Source: Roseobacter sp. SK209-2-6
GTDB taxonomy: Bacteria > Pseudomonadota > Alphaproteobacteria > Rhodobacterales > Rhodobacteraceae
DNA length: 64,000 bases
Assembly (NCBI RefSeq): GCF_000169455.1
Contig: NZ_AAYC01000005.1
Location: forward strand, 1 to 64,000
Direction: 5' to 3'
The position numbers and the translations under genes were made by a program. Below are positions 34,567 to 40,031 of this stretch, piece after piece (position 1 is the stretch's first letter; each line of letters starts with the position of its first letter). Under the pieces are notes generated by a model, which did not search any database, had not been told where the DNA came from, and was given only the letters and a program-made list of their open reading frames with translations.

Positions 34567-34989
34567 CTACCAGCGCCGAAAGAGAAAGTCCTCTCTGCGA
34601 TCAAAACAGTAGTTCCGAGCGGTCGCAGCATTGATATTCCGCCCCGGAAACTTGACGCTTAGCGAGTAGTGGTGGCTGGTATCTGCCCCATCAGGTGGAG
34701 ATAGGGCAAAGTGAACAGCCTTGCGGCCGGCGCGATGAACCGAAGGGCCAATTTCGCGCCAAACATAAATCCGTTGCGTTGCCTTGCTCCGCAATTGACG
34801 GATGCTGAAATCTCCAATTGCGCACCAATAGTCTTGTGCGCCAGATCCAACCTCGCTCACCACCTCCCAAACCCCTGGGGCGACTGGCAAGACCTCATGC
34901 CTGTTCCATGCCCACCAAGTCTGCGCCTGCAGTGGAGCTGTCGCGACGACAAGAATGACGGTAAGAAAACTATGGGTAACCCGGAACAT
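34567..34989 (-). CDS. Secreted paralogue 1 of a three-gene family
   Basis: This 140-residue protein has a signal peptide (MFRVTHSFLTVILVVATAPL, cleavage after LQA). The mature part shares with two neighbours the pattern V-P-x-x-x-G-x-(W/F)-E-V, then YWCAIGDFSIRQL, then a K/Q-x-x-YV-R segment with GPS and RKAVHFAL. Two cysteines (in YWCA and NYCFDR) likely pair. The ATG at 34989 is chosen because upstream residues are not part of a signal peptide. Family not recognised by name. Confidence 0.7.
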   Translation of the reverse strand: MFRVTHSFLTVILVVATAPLQAQTWWAWNRHEVLPVAPGVWEVVSEVGSGAQDYWCAIGDFSIRQLRSKATQRIYVWREIGPSVHRAGRKAVHFALSPPDGADTSHHYSLSVKFPGRNINAATARNYCFDRREDFLFRRW

Positions 34990-35011
34990 GGCACTTCGCC
35001 TTTTGGCAAAG

Positions 35012-35048
35012 GAAAACAAAAATGCGGGCGAACCAGGCGCCCGCATGC
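35012..35048 (-). terminator. Terminator after secreted paralogue 2
   Basis: A perfect 9-bp stem ATGCGGGCG/CGCCCGCAT with a 7-nt loop (35022-35046) is followed on the minus strand by TTTTTGTTTT. It separates paralogue 2 from paralogue 1. Confidence 0.9.
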
Positions 35049-35084
35049 GAGATCGGACAAGACAGATATCTGCGTCCAACAGGA

Positions 35085-35498
35085 TCAGAACGTAGTTTGA
35101 AGCTGATGACAATAGCTAAAGGCTTGGCTTACCTTCATGCTTTCGCCGGGTTTTAGACTATTGATGTTGTGAAACCCCCCAGCGGATCCTGCCGCAGCTT
35201 GTTGCGCATCCAGTGTAAATTGCGCGGCGGATTTGCGCCTTGTCGTTTCGCTGGGACCTAGCCCTCGTGCAACATAGAGCTTCGCTGACCAGGGTGCTTT
35301 CAGCTCACGCTGGGCATAGTCCGCCGCTGCGCACCAATAGTCACGCCCAATTCCACCCGCTTTGGGAACCACCTCAAACAGACCGGAGCCAACTGGGTTA
35401 ACCTTCGCACCACCTCGGGAGGTGAAGGCATCTGCGGTCTGTGGCATAGACAAAGCCGCAAGGGCGGCCACGAGGATCGGGAGAGAGGTGTTTTTCAT
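35085..35498 (-). CDS. Secreted paralogue 2 of a three-gene family
   Basis: This 137-residue protein has a signal peptide (MKNTSLPILVAALAALSMPQ, cleavage near ADA). The mature part is close to its neighbours: FTSRGGAKVNPVGSGLFEVV, then YWCAAADYAQREL, KLYVARGLGPSETTRRKSA and QFTLD. Cysteines in YWCA and YCHQLQ likely pair. A strong terminator follows, so it is a separate transcript from paralogue 1. No enzymatic motif is seen. Confidence 0.72.
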   Translation of the reverse strand: MKNTSLPILVAALAALSMPQTADAFTSRGGAKVNPVGSGLFEVVPKAGGIGRDYWCAAADYAQRELKAPWSAKLYVARGLGPSETTRRKSAAQFTLDAQQAAAGSAGGFHNINSLKPGESMKVSQAFSYCHQLQTTF

Positions 35499-35877
35499 CG
35501 GTTTGGCCTTTCTTTTAGGAAGTACAAAGACCCGCGGGCCTTCTCCTAGAAGAGATAGGAATGCCTGTATGAACTACCAGTAACGGTACCGTGCTACACG
35601 CGTCCGTGCCACAGATGTGACCATAGACAACAACCAGCACTTCGTGCCATCGCAGGAAGATCACTTCTCACGGCAGCGCCTCAAAACTCTCTGTTGAAAG
35701 TTGGAAGGTCTTCCGCCGAAGGTTTCCAGAAATCCCAAACCTTCTGGAATGTTTGCTAAATCCAGCTAAGCATGGTGTTCCGGCCCAAAACAAAAAAGAG
35801 CCACCCACACTAGCGCAAAACCAGCCTAGCGCAAAACCAGCGCTTTCAAATGCCGAGGCGAGGTTACAAACCTAGGG
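35499..35877. other. Intergenic region between secreted paralogues 2 and 3
   Basis: This 379-nt gap has no recognisable gene. It contains the promoter region of paralogue 2 and, near the right end, a 16-nt perfect tandem repeat (35810-35841). A T-run on the minus strand (AAAACAAAAAAGAG at about 35787-35800 on plus) may serve as a terminator for paralogue 3. Confidence 0.55.
35810..35841. repeat. 16-nt tandem direct repeat
   Basis: The unit CTAGCGCAAAACCAGC occurs twice with no spacer (35810-35825 and 35826-35841). The second copy is followed by GC, so AGCGC and GCGCT segments can pair on the minus strand, downstream of paralogue 3. Confidence 0.9.
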
Positions 35878-36291
35878 TCATCTCTCTTCAACAATGCTCT
35901 GATCGCAGTGACGGCGAGCGGATTGAATCGACATCCGGTCACCGGCCTTGATGCCAAAACGCAGCCAACCTTGCGGTGCAGGACCTACTCCGGTTTGCTC
36001 AGGATACAGCGTGAAATGCACTGCGGAACGTCGCCCAGTGGTCTCACTCGGTCCACGTTCTCGCAAAACATAGACCTTATCGGTCCATCCGGCACCAAGC
36101 TCCCGGCGCGCATATTCCGAAGCTCCGCACCAGAATCCAGCCAGATCGCCAGACCCAGAAGGGATGACCTCAAACACCAGATCCGTGAGAGGATTAACTT
36201 GAACGCCGCGCGCGGTTGTAAAGGCTTGAGCACCTGCAGGAAGAGCCAAGAGCACAGACAGGCTAAGCGCTTTTAGTGTATTTTGCATCAT
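35878..36291 (-). CDS. Secreted paralogue 3 of a three-gene family
   Basis: This protein of about 137 residues starts with two Mets (36291 or 36288) and a signal peptide (QNTLKALSLSVLLALPAGAQ; cleavage near AQA). The mature part matches its neighbours: FTTARGVQVNPLTDLVFEVI, FWCGASEYARREL, KVYVLRERGPSETTGRRSA and HFTLYPE. Cysteines in FWCG and RHCDQS likely pair. The residues before 36291 are not signal-like and are left out. Confidence 0.72.
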   Translation of the reverse strand: MMQNTLKALSLSVLLALPAGAQAFTTARGVQVNPLTDLVFEVIPSGSGDLAGFWCGASEYARRELGAGWTDKVYVLRERGPSETTGRRSAVHFTLYPEQTGVGPAPQGWLRFGIKAGDRMSIQSARRHCDQSIVEER

Positions 36292-36407
36292 CTTGGTCCC
36301 CTTTGCTTGCTTCCTAAATAGGTCAGCAGGCCGGAGCATCCAAGAGGTCTGGGCAAAGTTTCTGAAACGCCCAGCCCGCAGCTATCATTTATTCAAAACC
36401 CGCCCAG

Positions 36408-36710
36408 TTACATCAGGCGGCGGGGCGCCGGAAAGGGGATGACATCCGCCTCTAACCCGTTGCTCAGCGATTGCTCCAAAAGCGCCAAAACCTCTGCATT
36501 GGGGGCGATGCCCCCATCAGGAGAGAACTTTGCACGCGCTTTCCTGCGCAACATGGCCCGCGCGGAGTCTGCGCCCATGTTGCGCAGGGCATCGCCTTCC
36601 TCCCGAAGCATTTCGACCAGGAACTGGTTGGCATCGGTCATAACCTTCAGCGCTTCCAGCTTTTCTTTTAGCGTCCCGAGGGCCGTATTCAGGTCTTGAT
36701 CTGCAGACAT
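36408..36710 (-). CDS. Small conserved protein behind two CtrA sites
   Basis: This 100-residue cytoplasmic protein is mainly helical: LNTALGTLKEKLEALKVMTD, then QFLVEMLREEGDALRNMGAD, and a basic ARAMLRRKARAKF segment. It ends with DVIPFPAPRRLM. I do not recognise a family. The ATG at 36710 has a perfect AGGAGG site with good spacing, so it is well expressed. Two perfect TTAA-N7-TTAA CtrA sites lie upstream (36754-36768 and 36800-36814), which suggests cell-cycle, motility or gene-transfer-agent regulation. Its coiled-coil character would suit an adaptor. Confidence 0.7.
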   Translation of the reverse strand: MSADQDLNTALGTLKEKLEALKVMTDANQFLVEMLREEGDALRNMGADSARAMLRRKARAKFSPDGGIAPNAEVLALLEQSLSNGLEADVIPFPAPRRLM

Positions 36711-36753
36711 CAGCACCTCCTGGGGCGAGTTGGTCGTCAAATGGATACATTGG

Positions 36754-36768
36754 TTAAGACAAAGTTAA
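36754..36768. promoter_or_regulatory. CtrA-type site 1
   Basis: TTAAGACAAAGTTAA matches TTAA-N7-TTAA exactly. It lies 44-58 nt before the start codon of the 100-residue gene, the place where CtrA would contact the -35 region. Confidence 0.65.
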
Positions 36769-36799
36769 GCCCTCCCTCCTGCTGCAACAAGATCAGAAC

Positions 36800-36814
36800 T
36801 TAACAGATGGTTAA
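36800..36814. promoter_or_regulatory. CtrA-type site 2
   Basis: TTAACAGATGGTTAA, followed by C, matches the full TTAA-N7-TTAAC consensus. It is 90-104 nt before the same start codon and 46 nt from site 1. Confidence 0.68.
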
Positions 36815-36821
36815 CGCCCAA

Positions 36822-37385
36822 CTACGACACGGAAGAGCCAGATTGATCGACCGGCACGTCGAACTGCCCCTGGTAGCGGATCAGCAGGCCGACCCCCGGC
36901 AGGTGCCCCGAGATATCAAAACCAAAGCCGCCATCAAGTGCTGCAAACTCGCGCGCGGCACTCACAGGCGTCAGAAAACGCGGCAGCGGCAGGCCGAAGA
37001 GACGCGCCCGCAGCACTTGGACATGCAGTTCCCCGCCCTGAACCCTCAGGGTCACCTCAACCGATGCTGGGCCAAAGCTTTCAACGGCGCGGCCCGTCTT
37101 GGCATTGTAACGGAGGCAGGAGCGGGTAACCGAAGCACCAAAATGGCGGGTCCAAATATGGGCCGCTCCGTCCTCAATCGGGGTAATTTCTATGGAAAAA
37201 GGCACTGCATTGCTTGCCCGGGGGAACCCCAAAATCCGGGTCAGCAGCCGCGCCAGCCAGTTGCCGCTCTGCACTTCGGCCAGCCCGGAATAGCGCCCAC
37301 TGCCCCGTTCATGGAACGTGCGCAGCACCTCCGGCACTTCCAAGCCCTCGGCTGCGATGATCTTTCCATAGGCATCAGCCGCCAT
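36822..37385 (-). CDS. DUF4166 protein
   Basis: This 187-residue protein is of the DUF4166 type: RTFHERGSGRYSGLAEVQSG near the start, WTRHFGASVTRSCLRYNAKT in the middle, and a PVSAAREFAALDGGFGFD segment. The ATG at 37385 lies within the last codons of the DCC gene, an 11-nt overlap, so the two are coupled. DUF4166 domains often sit with or fuse to oxidoreductases; function is not known. Confidence 0.82.
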   Translation of the reverse strand: MAADAYGKIIAAEGLEVPEVLRTFHERGSGRYSGLAEVQSGNWLARLLTRILGFPRASNAVPFSIEITPIEDGAAHIWTRHFGASVTRSCLRYNAKTGRAVESFGPASVEVTLRVQGGELHVQVLRARLFGLPLPRFLTPVSAAREFAALDGGFGFDISGHLPGVGLLIRYQGQFDVPVDQSGSSVS

Positions 37386-37959
37386 CGGGCCTCCAATCGA
37401 GAAAACGGGACCGCACCTCAGCACTGGGCAGCATGCAGGTCTCATAGCGGCCAAAGATCTGATACCGGTTGCGGGCGATCAGGTGATATGCTGGATCTTT
37501 GACCCAACGGGGCAGAAACCGGCACAAGGACAGGATCGGCCAGGGCCAGGGCAAAGCGCGCATGGCCGTCGCAAAGGCGTCCAGCCGCTGATAACAGCGT
37601 CCATCGACATAGACGAGATTGGTCTCGAAATCTCCGGTGGGCAGCCCTTGCTCCCGGTAAAGCCGCTGGCCCAGGGCAGATTGAGCGGTGGCGAAAGAGA
37701 AGCGCCCTGCCCGGTCAAAGCGCAGCATGAACCGGAAGAACCCCGAACAGAGCACGCATTCGCCGTCAAAGACGATGAGATCGGAATGCTCGGGCCGCCA
37801 GCCTGCGGTCGATGTTTCCATCTCCACCGGTACTTCCCCACCGCCTTCGAATGCTGCACCGGGCGGCACCGCCGGGCAGCCCCCACCCGCCCCCAAGACG
37901 GGGGCTTTACCCCCACCCGGCCGGGCACTGGCCTCTGGCGATTCAACAGCCTTGTTCAT
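37375..37959 (-). CDS. DCC-family (DUF393) thiol-disulfide oxidoreductase-like protein
   Basis: The DCC motif is clear: LIVFDGECVLCSGFFRFML at about residues 61-79, with the CxxC pair, then RDRAGRFSFATAQS-like FSFATAQSALGQRL and YHLIARNRYQIFGRYE near the end. The first 46 residues are Gly/Pro-rich and not part of the domain; an internal ATG at 37821 could be the true start. It overlaps the DUF4166 gene downstream by 11 nt. A redox role is likely from the family. Confidence 0.82.
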   Translation of the reverse strand: MNKAVESPEASARPGGGKAPVLGAGGGCPAVPPGAAFEGGGEVPVEMETSTAGWRPEHSDLIVFDGECVLCSGFFRFMLRFDRAGRFSFATAQSALGQRLYREQGLPTGDFETNLVYVDGRCYQRLDAFATAMRALPWPWPILSLCRFLPRWVKDPAYHLIARNRYQIFGRYETCMLPSAEVRSRFLDWRPDGG

Positions 37960-38009
37960 ACAGCCCTACCCGACCTCTAGGCCCGGGTCCGGGCCGACTT
38001 TCATATAGA

Positions 38010-38036
38010 GAAAAAGGCGCCCCGCAGGGCGCCCTT
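38010..38036 (-). terminator. Terminator of rpoD
   Basis: A GC-rich hairpin GGGCGCC-CTGC-GGGGCGCC (38016-38034) is followed on the minus strand by TTTTTC. It begins a few nt after the rpoD stop codon. Confidence 0.9.
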
Positions 38037-38039
38037 TGA

Positions 38040-40031
38040 TCACTGGTCCAAGAAGCTGCGCAACTTGCGGCTGCGGCTGGGGTGCTTCAGTTTCCTGAGC
38101 GCCTTCGCCTCGATCTGACGGATCCGCTCGCGGGTCACGCTGAACTGCTGGCCGACTTCCTCCAGGGTGTGGTCAGTGTTCATGCCGATGCCGAAACGCA
38201 TGCGCAGAACCCGTTCCTCACGCGGGGTGAGCGAGGCCAGAACCCGGGTGGTGGTCTCCTTCAGGTTTTCCTGAATGGCCGAGTCCAGCGGCAGCACCGC
38301 GTTTTTGTCCTCGATGAAATCGCCCAGCTGCGAATCTTCCTCGTCCCCGATCGGGGTTTCGAGAGAGATCGGCTCCTTGGCGATCTTCATCACCTTGCGG
38401 ACCTTCTCCAGCGGCATCTGCAGTTTTTCGGCCAGTTCTTCCGGGGTCGGCTCGCGGCCAATCTCATGCAGCATCTGGCGTCCGGTGCGGACCAGCTTGT
38501 TGATGGTCTCGATCATATGGACCGGGATCCGGATGGTGCGGGCCTGATCGGCAATCGAACGGGTGATGGCCTGACGAATCCACCAGGTCGCATAGGTAGA
38601 GAACTTGTAACCGCGGCGGTATTCAAATTTGTCCACCGCCTTCATCAGGCCGATGTTGCCTTCTTGGATCAGATCCAGGAACTGCAAGCCGCGGTTGGTG
38701 TATTTCTTGGCGATCGAGATCACCAGGCGCAGGTTGGCCTCGACCATCTCTTTCTTGGCCTGACGGGCTTCTTTTTCGCCTTTCTGAACCTGCTGCACGA
38801 TGCGGCGGAATTCAGAAATATCCAGACCTACATACTGGCCGACCTGGGCCATCTCAGCGCGCAGATCTTCGACCTTCTCGGTGGAACGCTCGATGAACAT
38901 CTGCCAGCCACGACCGGGCTTTTCGCTCATCTCGGACAGCCAGTTCGGATCCAGCTCGCGGCCGCGATAGGCCTCGACGAATTCGCGGCGGTTGATACGC
39001 GCCTGATCCGCCAGTTTCACCATGTTGCTGTCGATCTGCATCACACGGCGGTTGATACCGTAAAGCTGGTCGATCAGCGCTTCGATCCGGTTGTTGTGCA
39101 GATGCAGCCCGTTTACCAGTTCAACGATCTCTGACCGCAGAGATTGGTAAGTCTTCTCGTCCTGGCTGCTGAAAGAACCGTCTTCATTCAGAGTCGCCGA
39201 AATCCGGCTGTCCTGCATTTCGGACAGCTGGGCAAAATCAGTCGAGATGCGTTCCAAAGTAACCAGAACACGGTCTTTCAAAGCAGCTTCCATTGCCGCC
39301 AGGGACATATTGGCCTGTTCGTCTTCGTCGTCATCATCATCAGAGGCAATCGGGTTGCCATCCGCATCCAGCTCTGGGCCTTCGTCTTTTTCGGACTTGG
39401 CCGCTGGTGCAGCCGCCGCGCCGGGCGCGACAACGGGCTCGTCGACCTCGCCGTCTTCGTCCATCTGATTGCCGAATGTGGTTTCCAGATCGATGACGTC
39501 GCGCAGCAGAATGTCTTCGGACAGAAGTTCGTCGTGCCAGATGGTGATCGCCTGGAAGGTCAGCGGGCTTTCGCAAAGCCCAGCGATCATCGTGTTACGA
39601 CCTGCCTCGATCCGCTTGGCGATTGCGATCTCGCCCTCGCGGCTCAGCAGTTCAACCGAGCCCATCTCGCGCAGATACATGCGCACAGGGTCATCGGTGC
39701 GATCCAGCTTTTCAGCCTGCGCACCGGCCAGAGCGACTTCGCGTGGGCCTTCGGTGGTCACAAGGTCTGTGGCGCCCTTGTTCTCTTCCTCTTCGACCTC
39801 TTCGTCCTCAATGATATTGATGCCCATTTCCGAGAGCATCGACATCACATCTTCAATCTGCTCCGAGCTCACCTGATCGGGCGGCAGAACCTGATTGAGC
39901 TGATCATAAGTGATGTAGCCCTTCTCACGGGCTTCAGCGATCATCTTCTTGACCGCTGCCTGGCTCATATCAAGGGAGATCTCTGCTTCCTGATCTTCAG
40001 GCTTACGGTCGTCGTTGTCTTTGGCGGCCAT
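38040..40031 (-). CDS. rpoD: Primary sigma factor RpoD (sigma-70)
   Basis: This is the housekeeping sigma factor of 663 residues. Region 1.1 ([20 protein letters not shown]) and 1.2 ([20 protein letters not shown]) precede an acidic non-conserved region (DDDDDEDEQ). Region 2 has the [20 protein letters not shown] segment and [14 protein letters not shown]. Region 3 and 4 follow, ending [20 protein letters not shown]. It is 128 nt downstream of dnaG and in the same direction, the classic macromolecular-synthesis order. Confidence 0.97.

Follow-up and report, generated by a model that had tools for sequence, protein, structure and literature searches.

A small gene downstream of rpoD carries two TTAA-N7-TTAA sites

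In the 64-kb stretch of DNA analysed here (the window), the gene for the primary sigma factor, rpoD (38040-40031, minus strand), is accompanied on the same strand by a DCC1-like thiol-disulfide oxidoreductase gene (37375-37959; Pfam PF04134), a DUF4166 gene (36822-37385; Pfam PF13761) and a gene encoding a protein of 100 amino acids (36408-36710). rpoD lies upstream of the 100-residue gene, and the DUF4166 gene lies between the two. A preliminary description of this DNA had assigned the small gene a strong AGGAGG, and a ribosome-binding site of that sequence is indeed found at 36716-36721 (minus strand), 5 nt upstream of the ATG. The gene is present in all 12 congeners that we compared and in 6 other genera.

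The gap upstream of this gene, 111 bp long, holds two full matches to TTAA-N7-TTAA, both at the positions first reported for them. The upstream site, a putative CtrA box (36800-36814), reads TTAACAGATGGTTAA on the plus strand and TTAACCATCTGTTAA on the gene strand (minus). The downstream site (36754-36768) reads TTAAGACAAAGTTAA on the plus strand and TTAACTTTGTCTTAA on the gene strand. The gap had been described as GC-rich; in fact its GC content is 49%, against 58% for the window. The claim that two such sites are unlikely by chance fared better, as the window has 2 matches against 0.12 expected, and 2 matches were attained in 1 of 100 shuffles of the window. The sequence TTAACCAT occurs a single time in the window, with both strands scanned, and falls within the upstream site. 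Across the whole genome (4.55 Mb, 29 contigs), we found 29 perfect TTAA-N7-TTAA matches and 40 matches to the reversed pattern; because the reversed control is the more frequent, the bare motif is not enriched genome-wide. The genome holds only one other pair of sites with starts no more than 50 bp apart (C29:473605 and 473653), and by our own arithmetic random placement of 29 sites would give about 0.01 such pairs.

The upstream site is conserved with a predicted core promoter

We aligned 18 promoter sequences, 12 from congeners (the Pseudophaeobacter group, window species included) and one from a single genome of each of 6 other genera. In 11 congeners the full upstream site occupied the same position, compared with 0.04 of 12 expected from shuffles, and the twelfth (L023) had a site with one mismatch. 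Among the congeners the box starts 98-108 bp upstream of the ATG. Conservation of alignment columns was 99% in the box, 52% in its upstream flank and 57% in the spacer. All six of the other genera, each represented by one genome, retained the half TTAACCA; three (L003, L004 and L096) had a one-mismatch box at the same place, and three (L002, L005 and L095) had the half site only. Full or near-full boxes downstream of rpoD were found in 4 of 7 genera that carry the 100-residue gene, versus 2 of 98 that do not. In one non-carrier genus (G137) a perfect TTAA-N7-TTAA of its own lies about 208 bp past the rpoD stop codon (L173), followed by a frame that, from its translation, we take to be REP-associated transposase-like.

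Downstream of the conserved box we predict, from the letters of the alignment, a core promoter on the gene strand with a -35 hexamer TTGTTG (36785-36790) and a -10 hexamer TAACTT (36762-36767). In all 18 sequences a TTG starts 23-24 bp after the box start, and every one of them has a TA 16-18 bp beyond the -35 hexamer. The same combination of TTG and TA spacing appeared in shuffled tails in a mean of 0.3 of 18 sequences and a maximum of 2 (500 shuffles), with an offset range that was picked after inspecting the alignment. A generic consensus promoter scan of 35800-38100 detected no promoter. In the window, 9 bp separate the end of the upstream box from the predicted -35, and the downstream site covers the predicted -10. 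We estimate that the box starts about 60 bp, and ends about 45 nt, upstream of the predicted transcription start. This arrangement resembles a sigma-70 promoter that CtrA activates and whose -10 can carry an additional, optional CtrA site.

The second site may limit the promoter

The preliminary description had proposed conservation of both sites in relatives as a check. The upstream site is conserved there; the downstream one, as a full site, is not, being full in the window species only and in 0 of the other 11 congeners and 6 other genera. L023, L005 and L095 each have a version of it with one mismatch that overlaps the -10. A full or near-full site over the -10 is thus present in 4 of 18 sequences. 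The expectation with the two hexamers kept constant is 0.25, and none of 2,000 shuffles attained 4, although the sequences are mutually related and the count was made post hoc.

A possible role for the second site is that of a limiter of the promoter. We base this suggestion by analogy on Caulobacter, in which, according to PMC4287350, CtrA acts as a repressor from half motifs that overlap the -10 and as an activator from motifs close to the -35; the ctrA P1 promoter, for example, is repressed with a CtrA motif at -14. The window promoter resembles ctrA P1 and similar promoters described there in having a CtrA motif that overlaps the -10, but differs from those cases in that one promoter would have two elements, a full site at the -10 and a conserved box farther upstream. 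We give nearly equal weight to the second site not being used. It is close to an even chance that the upstream box and promoter are under real CtrA control while the second TTAA-N7-TTAA is an unused by-product of an AT-rich -10. The restriction of the full site to the window species and its overlap with TAACTT favour this explanation, whereas the recurrence of one-mismatch sites over the -10 argues against it, within the limits of that count.

CtrA is the best-supported candidate regulator

The genome encodes a CtrA orthologue (C28:162894-163565) that is 75% identical to Caulobacter CtrA over residues 1-224. The CtrA motif is given as TTAA-N7-TTAAC in PMC7200025 and PMC4046655, and flagellar genes are described as being under CtrA in P. 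inhibens and D. shibae (PMC12363192; PMC4046655). In P. inhibens, CtrA mutants mostly lose expression, and PMC12363192 presents CtrA as mostly an activator. The genome studied here has a perfect TTAA-N7-TTAA 36 bp upstream of motB (L197:1225-1239, the same site as C26:166524-166538). One-mismatch sites in the same genome lie at the start of a presumed flgB-like gene and between presumed flgJ-like and fliK-like genes, which we named by reading translations and gene order.

The other close pair of sites (L007:3606-3668; C29:473605-473667) precedes a gene for a family-2 glycosyltransferase that includes an MshEN domain, next to a gene whose translation we read as that of carA. Of the 12 genomes of the genus, 11 have at least one perfect site near the start of the glycosyltransferase gene and 5 have two or more, with the qualification that the start codon of the gene is uncertain and that in some species the site lies at the edge of the longest possible frame or slightly within it. 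This gene is probably another conserved CtrA target. Perfect sites were also seen upstream of radC (L193) and of genes of the NDUFA12 type (L180), with PEP-CTERM (L184) and with a PAS domain (L196).

As a prediction, CtrA control of the 100-residue gene is well supported. The original suggestion that the gene belongs to the CtrA regulon gains from the conserved box and the encoded CtrA orthologue, and has to be amended in that the two sites are not equivalent. It is unlikely that the box is instead bound by a different regulator with a similar TTAAC-type palindrome. Two observations would suit such a regulator: the perfect CtrA motif lacks genome-wide enrichment, and the box is farther upstream than in the published CtrA-activated promoters compared here. 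The Caulobacter examples in PMC4287350 have the box at the -35 region or at -39, and podJ P1 at -49. The fla2 promoters of R. sphaeroides (PMC6180460) likewise have a CtrA-type box upstream of the start, with CtrA as the activator, but in those promoters 23-24 nt lie between the end of the box and the mapped start, whereas here the distance to the predicted start is about 45 nt and a TTG -35 lies between. Against a different regulator, the box fits the published motif, and a perfect site also stands ahead of motB, flagellar genes being CtrA-controlled in the two relatives.

The gene is found in one sampled clade and lies at rpoD

To the extent sampled, the 100-residue gene is restricted to one marine Rhodobacteraceae clade and to the rpoD locus. 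A profile search of 394 Rhodobacteraceae genomes from 393 genera found it in 7 genera. The other 386 sampled genera gave no match, and we found no link between the protein and the roles that had been proposed for it in motility, the cell cycle or gene transfer agents. An earlier sample of 295 genomes yielded 5 matches with a profile and 6 when one protein served as the query; we left uncounted the sixth, which falls within a 1147-aa frame of G078 (E 1e-3), and likewise a weak match from a separate search, within a 415-aa frame of G015 (E 0.009). A class-wide profile search of 289 genomes returned the window genome and none of the 288 others. Nine named matches, which include Pseudophaeobacter sp. 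EL27, P. flagellatus, P. leonis, Roseobacter sp. MED193 and Phaeobacter sp. CECT 5382, have the same promoter and start as 9 of the 11 other congeners; this places the window in the Pseudophaeobacter group, and the nine do not count as additional evidence. We set aside an origin from phages or plasmids, as tblastn of the window protein against plasmids and phages found no homologue.

Representatives of all seven carrier genera have the gene downstream of rpoD on the same strand, 0.2-1.9 kb away, with the DUF4166 gene in between in two of the seven. Nine further congeners have it 0.6-1.8 kb downstream of rpoD. Adjacency was examined in 16 of the 18 members (among the 12 congeners, all but L020 and L026) and was found in all 16. 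The DNA downstream of rpoD in 128 other genera (sets of 50 and 78) contained neither the gene nor a diverged orthologue; in the set of 50, the downstream DNA amounted to about 1.5 kb at most in 30 genera and to 342 bases in one. In a search for remnants in 12 near non-carriers, the tblastn matches listed were weak and scattered, with a best E of 0.008 over 36 residues.

We also built an rpoD protein tree of 85 genera by a quick method, with 7 carriers and 78 non-carriers mostly chosen for genomes of at least 4 Mb. The seven carriers fell within one group of nine genera, two of which do not have the gene. The distribution of the gene required 3 changes on this tree compared with 6.8 in shuffles, and 0 of 500 shuffles were as low. 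Support for the group is 81, which leaves the exact branch uncertain; the gene may have had one origin. In all 12 near non-carriers the genes after rpoD encode small proteins whose N termini resemble signals, and within the stretch read yjbQ follows in 11 of 12. Because these near non-carriers keep the order of rpoD, small proteins and yjbQ, the carriers look like the result of one insertion into a stable neighbourhood.

The window itself encodes, at 34567-36339 (minus strand), three adjacent related proteins of about 140-180 aa, all with signal-like N termini and none matching Pfam above the cut-off. Relatives have 1-4 copies of this protein after rpoD, mostly ahead of yjbQ. These are probably secreted members of a tandem family of variable copy number.

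The 100-residue protein matches no recognised family

The 100-residue gene is a real coding gene under purifying selection, as judged from its presence in all 12 congeners and a median dN/dS among them of 0.16 (65 of 66 pairs computable; dS frequently >1). An alignment of the 18 members contains a 3-residue insertion in L027 and otherwise short gaps. It reveals a conserved motif, AR-x2-L-x3-AR-x2-F, and a C terminus of the form A-x-[IV]-I-P-F-P, which is A-x-I-I-P-F-P in most members; the variants are VIPFP in the window protein, IIAFP in two members and IIPFR in one. A search for [IV][IV]PFP in 1.16 Mb of DNA found two open frames only beyond this family. These gave no lead, and we dropped the idea of IIPFP as a widespread motif.

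A helix had been anticipated in the protein, and the first segment (residues ~6-47) does show helical hydrophobic periodicity, with a moment matched by just 0.006 of shuffles; three other segments were not outstanding (0.18, 0.17 and 0.62 of shuffles), and the limits of all segments were drawn by eye. The protein had also been described as having no known family, and our profile searches agree. Pfam gave no meaningful match for the window protein and 5 members scanned (best E 0.031), nor did NCBIfam for the 18 members (best E 0.0012, for one member and a phasin-related model). The NCBIfam XisF model was touched by 7 of 18 members at E up to 1 (best E 0.0056). PHROGs gave no significant match for 3 members (best E 0.17). 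We found no literature on Pseudophaeobacter with CtrA, and the gene has no name, which limits such searching.

We tentatively picture the protein as a small soluble helical accessory factor that would dock on a partner through its conserved C-terminal IIPFP and tune a CtrA-dependent process, a guess that we hold at somewhat below an even chance. The most likely such process would be the swim-or-attach programme, given that two relatives share flagella and cyclic di-GMP turnover as core CtrA targets (PMC12363192). The position of the gene would suit a different role for the protein, as a sigma-70 or RNA-polymerase adaptor made on CtrA's command and acting on the neighbouring RpoD. The same-strand position after rpoD is indeed kept in all seven carrier genera despite changing intervening genes, but the rpoD-to-yjbQ neighbourhood is also found in non-carriers, so the linkage may reflect inheritance of one insertion, and the protein resembles no known family. 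We consider such an adaptor distinctly improbable.

Less probable still is a FlgN-like flagellar export chaperone. FlgN (5b3d) appeared at E 0.86 among five weak matches in a profile search of solved structures, and the 100-residue protein, small and probably helical, is like FlgN in these respects. However, neither the window protein nor the 5 members scanned match Pfam FlgN (PF05130), and the genome has a separate FlgN-like frame in its flagellar cluster (E 6.4e-6, below the Pfam cut-off, in a search in which controls match widely). The 100-residue gene is, moreover, missing from nearly all sampled genera. We rejected the FlgN identity on the first two grounds.

A young gene with a predicted CtrA-type promoter

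Taken as a whole, we think it fairly likely that the 100-residue gene is a clade-specific member of the CtrA regulon, controlled through the upstream box and, in the window species, limited by the second. Phosphorylated CtrA would bind the conserved box at 36800-36814 and recruit RNA polymerase carrying an RpoD-type sigma factor to the adjacent downstream -35 and -10, such that the protein would be produced while CtrA is active. In the window species, high levels of CtrA on the second full box would then act as a block on this promoter, limiting its output or setting the timing of it. In this scheme we infer CtrA as the binder, activation by the upstream box and repression by the second. The gene is probably a recent addition to the CtrA-controlled set, because a clade-limited gene is joined to a conserved promoter with a likely CtrA site. 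Several facts oppose this account: the motif lacks genome-wide enrichment, the box is farther from the predicted start than in the Caulobacter and R. sphaeroides examples, L002, L005 and L095 keep a half site only, the generic scan detected no promoter, the second site is perfect in one species only, and downstream of rpoD a full or near-full site also exists in two non-carriers. That both sites are due to chance is scarcely credible: two matches do arise in the occasional shuffle of the window, but the upstream box and core promoter are conserved across the 18 sequences, which refutes chance for the upstream site.

An extension of the preferred account, which we regard as improbable, is that the new gene entered the rpoD locus with a CtrA promoter, that its product is a regulator feeding back on CtrA or the sigma-70 machinery and that some species added the CtrA site over the -10. 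If this were true, the circuit would be pulse-like, with moderate CtrA activating the promoter and high CtrA shutting it off.

The locus offers a case, predicted from sequence, in which an old cell-cycle regulator governs a recently arisen gene that matches no known family. The pattern extends to all carriers found, and it is documented by the placement of the branch and by an unbroken alignment of the CtrA-type promoter. The 18 natural promoter variants, with or without the second box half and the -10 site, suit the study of how CtrA-site position relates to activation and repression in Rhodobacterales. A parallel exists in CP1-4 of P. inhibens, which PMC12363192 describes as conserved uncharacterised flagellar proteins, CtrA-controlled and from the same order; CP1-4 are universal in fla1 clusters, whereas the 100-residue gene is limited to one clade and lies at rpoD.
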